Assembly (NCBI RefSeq): GCF_024713945.1
Contig: NC_134682.1
Coordinates: 4,069,001-4,133,000, forward strand
DNA from: Dermatophagoides farinae
Lineage: Eukaryota > Arthropoda > Arachnida > Sarcoptiformes > Pyroglyphidae
DNA: 64,000 nucleotides
Reading direction: 5' to 3'
The notes under the pieces were generated by a model. That model was not told the origin of the DNA, made no database searches, and was given only the letters and a program-made list of their open reading frames with translations. The translations under genes and the position numbers were made by a program. Positions 2,082 to 62,853 of this stretch are shown one piece after another (the stretch's first letter is position 1; each line of letters begins with the position of its first letter).

Positions 2082-3328
2082 ATTTGTATACGAGAATTTT
2101 GATTTTCTAATTTTTTTACTTTGAAAAAAATTCTTTCAAAAAAAAAAATGTAAACAATTGTTTTTTTGGAATATTTCGAACATGTGTGTGTGTGTGTCAG
2201 TGACCCGTACATAGATAATGTATCCTAATTTTTCAAAAAAAAAAAAAAAAAATGAATTTTGAATTTTGACATGTTCAAAGTCCTCACACTAAATAGGATT
2301 TTTTTTTAGGTGAATATGCCAAAAAAAAAAAAAATTTTCCATTCTCTAATTTTATTATCATTCATTCATTCATATTTTTATATGTGTGTATGATACATTG
2401 TCATTTGGAAATTGGAACAATCACACCCACAATGATATACTAGCTTCTTGTTCAATATGCTGTTCTCGATTTAATGTTTCTTTATTATCATCATTTTCTA
2501 ACGAAAAAAGAAAAAAAAACTAAATGCTGATTTCAGCAGAAAAAAAAACATTTCATTAATTTTTTGATTGAATAATGTGAAATTCATAAATCAAAAAAAA
2601 AAAAAAACGAAGAACGAAAAACGAAAGTGTTGGCTATCGTTATTGAAAACAGGTTATCATTCGAAAAAAATTTTGAAATCAATTGAAATATTTATTACAT
2701 GAAATGAAAAATAAATTAAATGATGGAAAATTAAATGGAAAAAGAACTCGGACTGAAGAAAAATTATTGATTTATCATTATCATCACCATCACCATTACC
2801 ATTATCGTCATCATCAAATATAAACGACACACAAATCACAAGACAGCAAAAAAAATGTCTTTTCTTTTCTTTTTTTTTTTTCTAACTAATCATAAATGTT
2901 GACAAATCGTAAATTGTGTCAACTTCTCTGATTTTTTTTTCTTCTCAACAAAAATTTCTTTTCCTGCTCCTGTGTATGTATAGAAAACATTCGATAAGAG
3001 TGTGAAATTATTAGTGTGTTTGTGTAATGGAATTTTCACATCATCATCATCATCGTTGTCGTTGTTGTTTTTGATAACTTTTCACAATCACATCTCTCAT
3101 TCTAAAACAAAAAAGAAAGAAAATTTTGTTGAGAAATAAATTAATTTAGTTCGTGTGTGTGTGTTTAAGCTTTTTGCACAATAACTAATAACAATAATCA
3201 AACAGTTGACAAATTTCTTTCGTTTAGTCAACATCGTTTTAGTTTGTTTGTTTGTTTGTTTGTTTTTGGCCCATCCATCCATCTATTCAATCTATCCATA
3301 AATCGTGATTGAGAAACAAAAAGCAAAC
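2082..3328. other. Intergenic, between divergent cyclin H and reeler genes
   Basis: The interval carries the divergent 5' flanks of the two genes. It has poly-A/T runs, a TG repeat near 2181, CAT-type triplets and a GTTT repeat near 3245. No coding exon is supported. Confidence 0.6.
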
Positions 3329-4156
3329 ATGAAAAAATTCATCAAAATATTCACCACCATTGGAATATTGTTGGCCATCATTATTGGTTCAATAAGATCA
3401 TATCCAACTGGTGCACCAAAATGTTCGGCAACAGCACCAAAACATGAAGATCATAAAGCACAGACAACACCATCACCATATCAGATAACGGCATCAAAAA
3501 CGGGTAAATCCACTGCATCGGTAACAATTTCTGGTGGTGATTTTAAAGGTTTTATGTTGTATGCGGCTAAACCCGGTTCAAATGATATGATCGGTACGTT
3601 TACTAAGACTGATAAATCCAAAGAAATTACCTGTGGATCTGCTGTAAGTTTTTTTTTTGTTTTGTTTTCCATGTTGCTGAAATTGAAATTTGAGAAAAAA
3701 AAACTAATAATAATTTCTTTATTATGTTTAAATAGTCGGCCATTACACATAAAAATGATAAAGCTAAAAGTTCAATTACATTGACCTGGAATGCACCGGA
3801 TAAATTTACGGGTGATGTTGAATTCAGGTAAATAATTATTTGTTATTCAAAACAAAACAAAAAAATGATTCATGTCAACGATGACAACAACAACAACAAC
3901 AGGTCACAGTCTAATAATTGACAAAAATGTGGTCAAACGTGTGTGTTTGGTGTTTCATTCGAGCAATGAAATTGTATATGTTAGGAAAAAAATTGTAAAA
4001 GAAACAATCAGTTTTCAATTTTAACAATTCACTTTTTTAATTTATTTACATTTTCTTTCTCTATTTACACACACATGAATAAACAGGGCCAGTGTTGTCA
4101 AAGAATTTAAAGAATTTTGGTCTGGTCTGAAATCACCAAAAGTCACCTTTAAATAA
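3329..4156 (+). CDS. Secreted reeler-domain protein (putative defence protein family)
   Basis: Small secreted arthropod protein of the reeler/putative defence protein family, induced on infection in some insects. Its molecular activity is not settled. Exons are 3329-3643, 3736-3827 and 4087-4156, giving 158 residues, the usual family size. The signal peptide is MKKFIKIFTTIGILLAIIIG, with cleavage likely just before the YPTGAPKC start of the mature protein. The reeler signature follows: Cys in APKC, PKHEDHKAQ, PSPYQI, then ISGGDFKGFMLYA. A second Cys is in KEITCGSA, and a beta-rich end includes LTWNAPDKFTGDVEFRASVV. Eight codons upstream an in-frame ATG exists at 3305; I prefer 3329 because it begins the signal peptide cleanly. 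A poly(A) signal AATAAA lies at 4414. Confidence 0.85.
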
Positions 4157-7651: not shown

Positions 7652-15027
<7,376 letters not shown>

Positions 15028-33288: not shown

Positions 33289-33808
33289 TCATTTGTTATT
33301 ACCAATCATCATCATCATCATTGTTGTTGTAGCATCATTTAATTGTTCGAATGTTTGAAGATTTTGTTGTGCCGATTGTTGTAGATAATTTTTTCTTTCA
33401 ATCAATTTTTTTCTACAACAATCACGTTTATTTATTAATCGTACCATTTTATAACGTAATTCATTTTGATGTTCATTTTTTTCATTATAACATTGTCGTA
33501 ATTCTTTCAATGTGTTTGCACGAATTTTACATTCATCCAAATAAATCTATTATAATCAATCAATCAGTAAATCAGTGATATAATGATAAAAAAAAAAAAA
33601 CAAAATCAATAATTACAATTGTAAATCACCAACAAAAATATTACCTCTTTTTCATTTTTATTCTGTTTCACTTGACAAAGTACAAGCAAAATATTACGAA
33701 ATGATTGTCCATTTGGTTGTCGTAGAAAAATAAGCCGATATAATTCAAATTCATCATGAACATTTAACGTTTTATTCCGATGTGGTTGCTGATGTATATG
33801 ATGACGAT

Positions 33809-33839
<31 letters not shown>

Positions 33840-33998
33840 ATGATCACCATTATTCGATGATAATTGATGATGATTATTAGTATTAAATGGACAATAATAA
33901 CATTTCAATAATATTATCAATCTATTGAATAATTTATATTTATAATCAAAATCAAATTTATTATAATTATTATTATCGTTAATCCAAACATCATCATA

Positions 33999-34033
<35 letters not shown>

Positions 34034-34274
34034 TAGAATTTAATTCCATTACAATCATATGTAATGTATACAGGACAGTTAAATGATTCGGTTGAATGAA
34101 ATCATTTGATCGTAACTTGAATTGATGATGAAAATATTTTGATAATAGATTAATTATTCGATGATTTTCATTAACATTATTCATTATCATCATCATTATC
34201 ACATCATCAACAACAATGATTTTATGATTGAAATTGAAATTTTTTCCAAATTTCTGATGACAAAACACAAACAA
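33289..34274 (-). CDS. Unrecognised Asn/Asp-rich protein with C-terminal coiled coil
   Basis: Two exons, 34274-33645 and 33546-33289, joined in phase 0 with a GTAATA donor and TAG acceptor, give about 295 residues. The first 60 residues include several Met, so the start could be one of the later ATGs near 34197. Blocks that look truly coding are FKLRSNDFIQPNHLTVLYTL, FNRLIILLKCYYCPFN and HDEFELYRLIFLRQPNGQSF. Asp, Asn and His repeats separate them. Exon 2 is a charged helix rich in Lys/Arg/Glu (LKELRQCYNEKNEHQNELRY), so a coiled coil. A helical N-domain followed by a coiled coil faintly recalls kinetochore Nuf2, but the match is too weak to name it. Neighbours give no functional hint. Confidence 0.55.
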
Positions 34275-35177
34275 TAAACATTTTTCACAATTATAGCCAG
34301 TTGTATTTTACTTTAGTTTTTATTTTTTTTCGTCATCCTAGTCAATGTCAATTTTTCTTGATGATGATGATATTTTTTTTCGAACGAATTGAAAATGGAA
34401 AAAAAACTTAGTCACCAACACACACCACATTCGAATCATTGTTTTGTTTGTTTTCACTTTTCTTTGACCTCGATCGATTGATTTATTTACACTTGAAAGG
34501 ACTTGAAATTCAATTTATGGCTAGAATTTTGACAGAACAAAAAAAAAGTCTATTAATTGCAAATTAAATGACAAAAAATGTATAACAACAACAACAACAG
34601 CAGCAAAAAAAAAAAATTCACCATGTAATCAATCAATCACCAAATTTAAATAGACATGAAATTTGAATTGCAGAATTAATTATGGAGATGGATCAACAAA
34701 TAAGAGAATCAAATTACAATATAATTTTTTTTCATCGTTTTTTGTTGAATTTAATGACACAAAAAAATATTCTTCATCGGTTGTTCATCATCATCATCAT
34801 CATTGTTGTTTTTGAAATTCGTACCATTTTTTTTATCGTTTGTTTAACACAACAATCATCATCATATCCTCGAATATTTTTTGTCATGATAATGATATAT
34901 ATCAATAATAATGTTCTCTTTGGAATACCTTTGTTTATCTTGTCGTTTTTATTGTTTCAATTTCAACATTTGGGTCATTCATCATGTGTTGTTTTGGTTG
35001 ATTCACCTGACTCGAATTTTTGATTCGATCATCATGATGATGATGCTGATGATGATTTAAATTATTTTTTTAGTTTCAAATGAAAAAAAATGATTCATTT
35101 CAAATCTAACGATCATCATCATATCATCATCATCATCAACGAATTGTGTTGTGTAAAAGAGAAGAAAAAAATTTATA
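34275..35177. other. Intergenic upstream of the six-cysteine gene pair
   Basis: AT-rich, with CAT and TTG repeats. A 113-residue hydrophobic frame at 34682-35023 is judged to be chance (poly-Ile/Phe from T-rich DNA). The final 100 bases are probably the 5' UTR of the next gene. Confidence 0.5.
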
Positions 35178-36145
35178 ATGGAAACGACAACCATATCGTT
35201 AGGACCGGCTAGGTCGATACAATCGATACATTTATCATCATCATCATCACCATCATCATCGTCATCATCATCATCGAAACAATCGATTGGTCAATCATGG
35301 TTTTCATCATTTGTCATTATCATTGGCGTTGTTTTATTATTATTAGGCTGTGGTTGTGGACCATCATTACAGATTGCATTTGCACCGAAATTGATAACAA
35401 GATTTTGTTATAATTCACCAAATTTATCCACTATTAATGTAATGATGATGATGATTATGTTTATTTCCAGATTTTTTTTTTTAATTACTAATCATCATTT
35501 CAATTTATTTCCATCCACATTTTATATGTATAGAGCCAATGTGTCCTATGTAATTATTATATGTTTGATGCTACGGTAAGTTTTGGTGAAACAAAAAAAC
35601 TTTTTTTCTTTGTAAAATTATTATTTTTTTTTGTTATCATCAATAGGTTCTTGGATGTACTGGATCGGTTTGTAATCTCGTCATTTAAAATTCTTTTTTT
35701 GGTGTTTATTTTAAATTTCATTTTTCTCGATACACATACACACACAGACAGCATTAACGATGAATATAACGGCAACGCAGGCATTCTGTGTCATTTCACA
35801 ATGTTTAGGTGTAAGTTGAATTTTTTTTTTTTTTTTTTGAATCACAATTTCTTTTTTATTGAAAATATTTTACAGCAAATAAGACAACAACCAGTATTTT
35901 TGGGACGTCGTAAACGAGATAGTAATTCAAATATGATAATGGAACAATTAGCACCAATACAACGTTACAAGGATTCGAATTTGGATATGATCAATCAATC
36001 TGCTATATCTACATTACCGGTTGAATATCGTATCGAAAAAGAAGTTGAAGCAGATATTGTACCTGATGATGATATCGATAATGACGATGATGATGACGAT
36101 GATGGCTACGAAATTTCCGGCAAAGATTTGGATTCGTCAATCTAA
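35178..36145 (+). CDS. Secreted six-cysteine protein, paralogue A, with RRKR cleavage site
   Basis: Unrecognised secreted protein. Exons 35178-35438, 35534-35575, 35647-35671, 35752-35810 and 35876-36145 give 218 residues. A Ser-rich leader precedes the hydrophobic signal segment FVIIIGVVLLLLGCGCG at about residues 45-61. The mature part has six Cys in the pattern C-x12-C-x2-C-x11-C-x16-C-x4-C: RFCYN, SQCVLC, LGCTGS, AFCVISQC. The next gene has exactly the same spacing, which strongly supports these small exons and their joins. After the last Cys comes QIRQQPVFLG then RRKR, a furin-type dibasic site with a Gly before it. The C-terminal tail is acidic (Asp run) and ends KDLDSSI. It could be a growth-factor or hormone-like precursor. 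Confidence 0.65.
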
Positions 36146-36656
36146 TTGATCATCATTAATCATTAATCATCTAACTTGACCCTATTCATCATATATGAAT
36201 GAATGAAATTATTATAACTAACCTAACTTGTTTTATTTTGAATGATTTATTTTTTGTTTTTTTCTTTTATTGAAAAAAAATGTTGTTGTTTTTTTTTGTT
36301 TCCAAAAAAGAAAAATTTTTTTTTTCATTATTCAATGACAAATATGACATTTCCGCCTGGTTTGTTATTTTATTTTGTTAAAATTTATGAATCAATGAAT
36401 TCAAAACAACACAACAAACGACAACAACAACAACAACAACAAAAAAAAACATCCAATCAATTCAAATCCAATCCGGTCCAGTGAATTTATGGGTGGACAA
36501 ATAGATTCCAATATATATATTCGGATGTATTGTGGTGGTGGAAGATTGTGTGTTCGGGTCAGTCGGTTTTTTGTTGTTGTTGTTGTTGTTTGTGAAAATA
36601 AAATGAAAAATAAAAATATTTCATGATCATCATTCATTTACTGACTATCATTGAAA
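36146..36656. other. Spacer between the two six-cysteine genes
   Basis: 511 bases of poly-T, CAA repeat and TTG repeat sequence. It contains the 3' UTR of paralogue A and the promoter of paralogue B. No exon seen. Confidence 0.55.
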
Positions 36657-37641
36657 ATGGTTGATTCAATCAGAATGATGATGATGATGATACGAATGAA
36701 GAATATTTTCGTACTTATTACCACTGGTATTTGGTGGTCATCATTATTTTTCATTTCATTCATCAGTCTATTTCAACATTATTCAACCTATCCAATGGTA
36801 AGTTTATATATAAGTGAATAGCAAATTCTTTTATCATTCGATTTCGATGAAAAAATAGCCACAAATGAGAATATGTATACAATCAATTGATCCAACAAGA
36901 TTACCAAGTCAATGTATCTATTGTAAAAGTCGTACATTTCCAATTACTGTTCGTATGTGTACTGGTAATGTATGTTAATTTTTTTTTTTTTTTTTTTTTT
37001 GATAATGTGAATGATTGGGTTAACCAATATTTTGTGTTTTTTTTTTCTTGTTATATGAAGTCATATCTTCCGGCACGTATGACATTGAATGAAGCTTCGT
37101 GTTTGATAACCACTTGTCGTAAGGTGTGTTATATATATTCTATTTAATGAATGTCCATGATTGATTCGTTTTTTTTGTTTTGTTTGCATAGCAACTTCCA
37201 AGATATCCACCGGAACCATATTCATATATACGTCCAATGGCTAATAATAATATTGGTTATAATAATAATAATCATAATAGCTATAATAGCCATAATAATA
37301 ATAATGCAATGCATAATGATCCAATTAATGATGACGATGATGATAATGATCATAGTAATGATCATACGAATGGATCGAATGGTATCGATGATGTTGGTGG
37401 TAACAATGGTGGCAATGATATAATGGAACATCCATCAACAACAATAATCAATAAGATACGTAAACCAGCGAAATTTTTTCTTGGAAAACCACAAAAAATT
37501 CAAACATCAAGTAAGATTTTTTTCCTTCTCTCTCTCTTTCTCTCTCTCTCTCTATCAACAAACTCAATTCATATTAATATAACATTTTTTTCTTTTGATT
37601 AAAAATTGTAAATAGTTCGACCATTTTCGTTGTATGGATAA
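36657..37641 (+). CDS. Secreted six-cysteine protein, paralogue B
   Basis: Unrecognised secreted protein and tandem paralogue of the preceding gene. Exons 36657-36797, 36859-36969, 37061-37123, 37192-37510 and 37616-37641 give 219 residues. The N-terminal signal anchor is IFVLITTGIWWSSLFFISFI. The Cys module reads RICIQ, SQCIYC, RMCTGN, ASCLITTC with spacing C-x12-C-x2-C-x11-C-x16-C-x4-C, identical to paralogue A. Shared residues include SQC before the CxxC and CTG at Cys 4. The intron two residues after Cys 6 sits at the same place, phase 0, in both genes. The tail is Asn/Asp-rich and ends IRPFSLYG, a terminal Gly that could be amidated if the end were exposed. No RRKR site follows the module here. 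Function unknown. Confidence 0.65.
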
Positions 37642-40040: not shown

Positions 40041-45909
<5,869 letters not shown>

Positions 45910-60108: not shown

Positions 60109-62853
60109 ATGGGCGGAAATCATCTACTGTTATTAGGTAAGTCTATCAAATGTCTGACGAAAAAAAAAATTGATTATCATATCCTGTCTGATTGCTTGTT
60201 ATGTTGAATGAATGGTGATTTTTTTCATTTCCAAATACATTCATCATCATCATCGACAACAACAATAATGATAATAATCACAGAATGATGATTAAAAACG
60301 ATGATGATGATTATATATCATCAGACATATAAATAGCAAAGCAATAAAAAAAAACATTAAGTACAACAGTAGGTCCTGTCGTTTATTGACTGATGATAAT
60401 AATGTTGAAAATATTAGTTCTACTTTTAGATTTTTTTTCATTTTCATTTTTTTTGAAAAGCTAGCCAGATTTCAAATTTGCAAACTACTCTTATTTATTA
60501 TTCATCAAAATTTTTAAAGAGCTTATAATTGTTTTTTTTCTTGTTCCTGTCTTTCCATGTTAACACACACACACACTCGCTGTCTACAAGTCAATTTATT
60601 CATTCATTCATTAAAAAAAAATATTGATTCATCATCCTTTTTTTATATATTTTATATATAATAAGTTTAGTTTTTTTCCGGAATGTTTGAAAAAAAATAA
60701 TAACATTACCACCAGCCACATACGCAAACGCAAAATCTCTAAATGATTGATTGTTTCATTCATTAATTTTACATTGATATTTTTTTTTTGATTCAATATA
60801 TTTCATTTTTGTTTTGTTTTGTTTTTTTTGTTGTCTGATTGATCCTACTTATTTTTTTTAGCCATTTTGCTGCCAGCAATAGTAACGAGCTTAGCCCCTC
60901 AAACACCATCATCATCATCATCATCAGGTGTTCGATTGAATCGAATCTTATTACGACGTACATCACGTACAGCCATACCGATGCGTATTAGTTCATCACC
61001 TCGACAAAGATTCTCTCGATATATACAAGAACAACAACAACAGCAACAATTGGAATCACCGCAGGATGTTCAACAACAACCGCAACAACAACAAGATGAT
61101 GATAATGATATTGATTCAGAATTGGAATTCCTTATGAATGCATTTCAGCAGCAGCAACAACAACAACAACAGGAACAACAGCAAGAGCAACAACAACAAG
61201 AACAGCAACCAATATCTATGATGATGAATGGCAATGGCGGTGGTGGTGGATCAGTTCCGGCTTCTGCTATGTATACAACACTTCCATATGGTGGTTATTC
61301 ACCTGCTGCTGGGTCAGCTTCGCCAACTTCAACGCCTCGAACCGTACAACAGAAAGGTAAATGGATAAAATTGATTATGCAAACAAAAAATCCTATAAAA
61401 TTTGATTATTTTAGAAGAGGATATACCACGTCGTTCACAACCGGCTGGATTGGCTGCCGCTGGTGTTGAAATAGATTTATCACAAAAATTCATGCCACAA
61501 ATGCGTGAAGTTGATCAATCATATGGTGCTGGTAATGGTGGTCAACAAAATGGTGCTTCAATGGGATATAGCACAAGAGGTTATAAAAATGGTGGAGGTA
61601 ATGGTGGCAGCAGCCATGATGATTATGATATGGGTTTTGATAACAGTATCGATATGATGGATATGATGAAAAATTCGATCCGTGGTGAACCGGGTAAAGA
61701 TTATCCTATTCTAGCAGATATTCCTATTACACGATTCAAATGTTCAGATCATGAATCGCCAGGTTATTATGCTGATGTTGAAACACAATGTCAAGTTTTT
61801 CACATCTGTCAAGCGGATGGCCGTCATAATTCATTCCTTTGTCCAAATGGTACCATTTTTTCACAACGTCATTTTGTATGCGTTTGGTGGTATGAATTTG
61901 ATTGTATGGATTCAGCGGCTTATTTTGGATTGAATGCTGAATTGTATAAAGAAGTTGAAGCAATCGTAGAATCAATGCCAAGCGGCCCAGCTAATGGAGG
62001 TGGATTTGCAGCTGGTAGTGCTGGACCAATCACCGGTGGTAGTGTACCAAGTTATGGTAATGGTGGTGTTACTCAATCCCCGAAACAATCTATGTATCAG
62101 CAACAACAAATGGCTGATGATTTTACTGTTGAAATGGGTCCAATGACAACAACATCTCCAATGTATTATTCTGGTAATGGTCAACGATCAAAACCATCAG
62201 CTATTCAAAACTATGGATATAGCAATGGCAAAAATGGTAACGGAAATGGCCAACGACCAAAACTAACCTCAAGATATGAACCATCATATGGTAGTGGTGG
62301 TAGCTCACCAATGTCTGTGACACCTAGTCCAATCGGTCAAGAAACCTATGAAACAACGCCTTACAATTTGGATGCTGCATTAGGCGAAGAAATTCATTCG
62401 GAAACACCATTAATCGAATCATTACCATTGACAACTATATTACCACATGTGGAAAAAGTCGTAGATATGGCCATTGCTAGCCGAAAAACAGCTTCAACTA
62501 AATCAGCATATTATGGTTCAAATAATGGTTTCGGAGGTAAAAAGTAAGTAGTCGACTATTTCGAATGACAATTTAACATCCAATTTAATTTGATTTGATT
62601 TTTTTCATCTAGATTAAATGGTGGTTCGAGACCATCATATGGTAGTATAAAAGGTGGTAGCAATAATGGTAAATCGAATAATGGCGGCGGTAGTGTACCA
62701 TCAACATATGGAATGGCAAATGGAAGTTCATCACCATCGACATCATCATCACCATCACCACCATTATCACCAGCATCAACGGTAGCAGCACGAAAGAATG
62801 GTGGATTTAAACCACAACAACAATATCAACCATCATATGGAACAAAAATTTAA
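60109..62853 (+). CDS. Secreted one-domain chitin-binding protein (CPAP1-like cuticle protein)
   Basis: Extracellular protein expected to bind chitin in cuticle. Exons are 60109-60136, 60862-61356, 61415-62543 and 62613-62853, giving 630 residues. Exon 1 plus the start of exon 2 build a signal peptide, MGGNHLLLLAILLPAIVTSLA, with cleavage likely after Ala 21. A signal peptide split by a long (725 base) first intron is common for arthropod cuticle genes. One type-2 chitin-binding (CBM14) domain lies at residues 284-338: RFKCSDHESPGYYADVETQC, VFHICQADGR, FLCPNGTIFSQ, then VCVWWYEFDC, so all six Cys are present. Flanks are Gln-rich before it and Gly/Ser/Asn/Tyr-rich after, with repeated PSYGSG/PSYG motifs. 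A single domain in long low-complexity arms fits the CPAP1 group. Confidence 0.9.

Follow-up and report, generated by a model that had tools for sequence, protein, structure and literature searches.

The window analysed here, a stretch of 64,000 nucleotides (positions 4069001-4133000 of contig C6 in a 62.4 Mb, 22-contig mite genome), carries two neighbouring genes on the same strand, A (35178-36145) and B (36657-37641), whose predicted products share a 51-residue block of six cysteines. Sequence comparison indicates that A and B are homologous, the old duplicates of one gene. As the most likely explanation we tentatively favour a tandem-duplicated pair of three-disulphide secreted peptides, which would serve as extracellular peptide ligands of a hormone-like or growth-factor-like kind. 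Small secreted proteins with six cysteines are an already known kind; the particular spacing found here matches none of the families with which we compared it, a comparison by sequence within Pfam and the PDB.

A tandem pair sharing a six-cysteine module

Both genes comprise five exons. Reading frames are open in the two models, all introns are bounded by GT and AG, and the predicted products are 218 (A) and 219 (B) residues long.

35178..35438, plus strand: A exon 1; long Ser-rich N-region, hydrophobic core 42-60 (with Cys58 and Cys60), presumed mature start and Cys1; donor gtaatgat
35534..35575, plus strand: A exon 2; SQCVLC, with Cys2 and Cys3
35647..35667 (alternative end 35671), plus strand: A exon 3; VLGCTGS, with Cys4; the intron behind it matches B in position and phase
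35748..35810 (alternative start 35752), plus strand: A exon 4; Cys5 and Cys6
35876..36145, plus strand: A exon 5; QIRQQPVFLG-RRKR, acidic 75-residue tail, stop
36657..36797, plus strand: B exon 1; Met-rich start, signal-like hydrophobic segment
36859..36969, plus strand: B exon 2; Cys1 to Cys4 (RICIQS...SQCIYC...CTGN)
37061..37123, plus strand: B exon 3; Cys5 and Cys6 (SYLPARMTLNEASCLITTCRK)
37192..37510, plus strand: B exon 4; Pro/Tyr segment, Asn/Asp-rich linker, KIRKPAKFFLGK
37616..37641, plus strand: B exon 5; IRPFSLYG, stop

From Cys1 to Cys6 the two proteins align without gaps, with intervals of 12-2-11-16-4 in both and under either splice of A, and every cysteine past the hydrophobic segment falls within this module (six per protein). 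The tandem arrangement with identical intervals, the SQC ahead of the CxxC and the CTG at Cys4, all pointed out in the sequence-only reading, were thus found again. That reading had also called the sequence outside the cysteines strongly diverged, but conservation extends beyond the cysteines: identity amounts to 18 of 51 module positions, including 12 of the 45 that are not cysteine, and the shared letters read C..S.......SQC..C....F..TV..CTG...L....T...A.C.I..C. Its proposal that the spacing is under selection is consistent with the identical intervals, but draws on two sequences, in which other positions are conserved as well.

Single pairwise BLASTP comparisons of A with B gave E 3e-10 for the module and E 2e-9 for the whole proteins. 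When the non-cysteine residues of A were shuffled with the cysteines held fixed, the observed identity at non-cysteine positions was reached in 5 of 100,000 shuffles and the BLOSUM62 score in 1 of 100,000 (4 of 100,000 with the splice of the sequence-only reading). At the nucleotide level, identity by codon position was 24/30/21 of 51 with the splice we prefer, against codon-shuffle means of 14.4/13.1/17.7 (n=2000), a pattern as expected of coding sequence. Taken together, identity, shuffles and codon-position signal show that the resemblance reflects common descent under protein-level constraint, not spacing alone.

Intron positions were compared as offsets in nt, counted from the codon for Cys1 (first base). 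In B, one phase 0 intron interrupts the module at offset 96 and another follows closely after it at 159; two more, at -15 and 478, are peculiar to B. A shares the intron at 159, two residues after Cys6 and likewise in phase 0, just as the sequence-only reading had described, and has introns of its own at 33 and 75. For the third intron of A there are two in-frame options, both of which keep the x16 interval: 35671/35752, which lies at offset 100 in phase 1, and 35667/35748, at offset 96 in phase 0. The two remaining donor/acceptor combinations introduce stops, 9 and 14 in all. With donors starting GTAATC and GTTTGT, respectively, neither option was judged ideal. We prefer 35667/35748 because it makes two introns of A and B coincide instead of one; the junction of the sequence-only reading, 35671/35752, is in frame and preserves the spacing, but lacks this match to B. 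Common intron positions thus number one under either splice and two under the preferred one.

Between the genes, AATAAA (poly(A)-like) occurs at 36597 and 36609, 60 and 48 bases before the start codon of B. Lying this close, these elements imply that the 3' end of A and the 5' end of B may overlap, or that the two genes may be co-transcribed.

Comparison with known families and search for further copies

Neither the proteins A and B nor their modules matched any Pfam model at its cut-off, both in a first run (A with the splice of the sequence-only reading, B minus its last 8 residues) and in a second with the 35667/35748 splice. Listings extended up to E 10 but are incomplete, as HMMER filters drop most matches above ~E 0.1. 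For A they held Astro_1A (E 0.079; 0.049 with the alternative splice) and Vg_Tdu (E 0.36; 0.21 and 0.5 with the alternative splice), both under the cut-off and taken as noise; for B they held nothing. In the PDB, module B alone returned 0 matches, and a two-sequence A/B profile listed RBBP6 (E 0.22) and FI20010p1 (E 0.54), neither significant. The earlier statement that the pair belongs to no recognisable family is therefore borne out in Pfam and the PDB, the eukaryotic references compared, and no description of a 12-2-11-16-4 spacing was noticed among the titles and abstract beginnings of the papers listed.

Eclosion hormone (PF04736) is a small secreted peptide which, like the module, has six cysteines (three disulphides) and a CxxC followed by a cysteine 11-12 residues on. 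However, its spacing, computed from the cysteine positions given for Amblyomma in PMC10490126, is 2-2-12-3-11; A and B lack C-x12-C-x3-C and do not match PF04736, which agrees with the earlier exclusion of this pattern. A six-frame search returned PF04736 in 0 of 1 genome, although this exon-wise search had no eukaryotic positive control and can miss matches. The hormone is also reported as absent in D. pteronyssinus (PMC12105342). CHH-type matches over the cut-off were found on contigs C3 (one) and C10 (two), with another below the cut-off on C2 and none at the locus. CHH/ITP peptides (PF01147) are likewise secreted, often amidated and built on six cysteines, with a spacing of 15-2-12-3-8; the module differs from it, and neither A nor B matches PF01147.

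The cystine-knot hormones (bursicon, GPA2/GPB5, DAN, PF03045) resemble the pair in a tandem arrangement, that of the bursicon genes, and in having CxG where A and B have C-T-G. A classical cystine knot combines CxGxC with a later CxC. In A and B the C-T-G is followed by no second cysteine and there are zero cysteines after Cys6, so a knot of this definition cannot form; here too the sequence-only reading had judged correctly. Bursicon alpha and beta carry consecutive locus numbers in D. pteronyssinus (PMC12105342). DAN-type matches over the cut-off sit elsewhere in the genome.

Pacifastin (PF05375), with the consensus C-x9-12-C-x2-C-x-C-x6-8-C-x4-C, has six cysteines and three of five intervals in common with the module, but the module has x11 instead of C-x-C between Cys3 and Cys4, and no PF05375 match was obtained. 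CBM14 (peritrophin-A, PF01607) shares the six cysteines and two of five ranges; between Cys2 and Cys3 it has x5-6, as opposed to x2 in the module, and PF01607 did not match A or B, another ORF of the window serving as positive control. Chelicerate odorant-binding proteins, likened here by description, have six cysteines, as A and B do, but are larger binding proteins. Six conserved cysteines are described for mite proteins of this class in PMC8269058.

No copies beyond the locus were found in the 62.4 Mb genome with A, B or an A/B blend as query. B and the blend each recovered B only, leaving A unlisted at E <= 10, and A recovered itself, plus B at E 0.44. Since these searches barely connect A with B, equally diverged copies could be missed. 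One SQCxxC-type pattern gave 232 genome matches (40 for the reversed-pattern control), and a second 136 (control 84), A and B included. From the first part of each listing, 20 SQCxxC places (11 + 9) were picked by eye for likely middle residues; when these and the six frames of the window were searched with the A/B profile, only the exons of A and B passed inclusion, the next match having E 0.024. Pattern stretches in viral contigs (34) and in bacterial or archaeal contigs (18) yielded 0 confirmed relatives.

Predicted processing and possible roles

Both proteins have hydrophobic N-terminal stretches, with Kyte-Doolittle 19-residue maxima of 2.58 (A, from residue 42) and 1.84 (B, residues 17-18). 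The two had been called signal-bearing, which is plausible for B; the core of A, however, begins only at residue 42 by hydropathy, behind 41 residues rich in Ser, and includes Cys58 and Cys60. If the signal were cleaved behind AFA, as we read the -3,-1 rule, these two cysteines would be lost. A type II membrane anchor is another possible reading of a core so placed, after a Ser-rich stretch.

Behind the module, A continues with LG, QIRQQPVFLG, RRKR (the GRRKR at residue 139) and the acidic 75-residue tail. With FLG-RRKR behind its module A looks prohormone-like, as far as processing can be predicted, and because of this site we lean towards a processed peptide ligand for A. The B module leads into RK, a Pro/Tyr stretch, the Asn/Asp-rich linker, KFFLGK and the terminal SLYG. 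The basic sites of B are RK at 104 (directly behind Cys6), RK at 195 and GK at 203, with a C-terminal G; a dibasic-amidation site adjoining the module is absent. Sequons occur in A within the module (NLS and NIT) and in the tail (NQS), and once in B, in the linker.

In the scenario we tentatively favour, the ancestor would have been a gene encoding a small secreted protein with a single module of three disulphides, which underwent tandem duplication in a mite lineage. Carried into the secretory pathway by its N-terminal hydrophobic segment, each product would be exported from the cell, its 51-residue module closed by three internal disulphides. Furin-type cleavage at RRKR would release the A module from its acidic tail, and the Gly ahead of RRKR could then become a C-terminal amide, as happens with peptide hormones; in B a low-complexity linker comes after the module. 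The two copies may then have diverged in receptor, tissue or timing. Secretion, cysteine pairing, cleavage, amidation and the ligand role are all steps that we infer. In favour of this scenario are the homology beyond the cysteines, the codon-position signal, the common introns, the hydrophobic N-termini, the GRRKR of A, the confinement of all later cysteines to the module, and the fact that no enzyme or inhibitor Pfam model matched A or B at its cut-off. The late hydrophobic core of A and the lack, in B, of a dibasic-amidation site adjoining the module weigh against it. Still, with two sequences, the results would fit a ligand, an inhibitor and a defence peptide alike.

Among the alternatives, it is conceivable, albeit unlikely, that A and B are secreted cysteine-rich peptides of defence or seminal fluid, whose action would be on microbes or in mating, not hormonal. 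D. pteronyssinus offers candidates that can be likened by description, namely 24 putative AMP-like genes with an annotation as cysteine-rich peptides, of which 11 are male-enriched (PMC12105342), and the net charge of +3 of module B would suit such a role. The net charge of -1 of module A and its acidic tail speak against it, as do the mere two copies found, in what was a weak genome search.

We consider it rather improbable that the module represents a domain for protease inhibition or for chitin or matrix binding, pacifastin-like or CBM14-like, too diverged for the models. The three of five intervals shared with pacifastin and the two of five ranges shared with CBM14 could be read this way, but the pacifastin C-x-C and the CBM14 x5-6 are absent from the module, and neither PF05375 nor PF01607 was listed up to E 10 (HMMER-filtered), even though CBM14 was detected in the other ORF.

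To a similarly small degree we would credit an already known peptide-hormone family of arthropods or chelicerates that diverged strongly in mites and that arthropod proteomes would readily reveal. A diverged homologue could hide behind the failure to detect PF04736 in the genome and its reported absence from D. pteronyssinus (PMC12105342); the spacing, however, is unlike the 2-2-12-3-11 of Amblyomma (PMC10490126), CHH-type loci exist elsewhere in the genome, and no Pfam hormone model matches A or B. That A and/or B are not real genes, their likeness being due to chance or mis-modelled introns, is most improbable: the models come from sequence alone and exons 2 and 3 of A measure only 42 and 21 (or 25) nt, yet the BLASTP E of 3e-10, the shuffle test, the codon-position signal and the common intron positions all argue against it.

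If A and B are indeed ligands, mite endocrinology would gain an unassigned peptide family, in a setting where a standard component, eclosion hormone, went undetected. A bolder version, to which we assign little credence, would have them found a new disulphide-module ligand family of astigmatan mites, the pair being two linked signals, possibly partner subunits, with eclosion hormone apparently missing. A role in defence or matrix would make the finding an ordinary one. Thanks to the small module and its clear exon boundaries, profile searches, RNA-seq and peptide mass spectrometry would be direct.

Other features of the window and genome

A Pfam scan of neighbouring ORFs identified, upstream of A and B on the minus strand, a metallophosphatase ORF and an EF-hand ORF; the minus-strand ORF at 33609-34307 had no Pfam match over the cut-off. 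Downstream, the plus-strand region 40602-45906 holds DOT1-domain exons and, behind them, two long ORFs (487 and 839 residues), the larger of which has no Pfam match at E 0.001. Further upstream, on the minus strand, a homeodomain exon (10100-10429; PF00046, E 8e-16) and a paired-box exon (13607-14254; PF00292, E 6.6e-73) perhaps belong to one Pax-type gene (region 8587-14254). On the plus strand, a small protein encoded at 3302-3781 combines a Reeler domain (PF02014, E 3.6e-11) with a hydrophobic N-terminus, and the ORF at 61399-62544 contains a CBM14 chitin-binding domain (E 4.9e-10).

Elsewhere in the genome, the papain family (PF00112) accounts for 36 matches at E <= 1e-10, some with internal stops, and forms clusters at C5:5390518-5395996 and C6:4883586-4889723; one papain-family marker matched cathepsins, with no dust-mite entry noticed among the best 60 of its 133 matches. 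Group-2-allergen-type matches number five; the one compared with the PDB makes a house-dust-mite relative likely, and as a single marker supports the mite origin proposed in the sequence-only reading, its best matches being Der p 2 (E 3e-30) and Der f 2 (E 1e-29).
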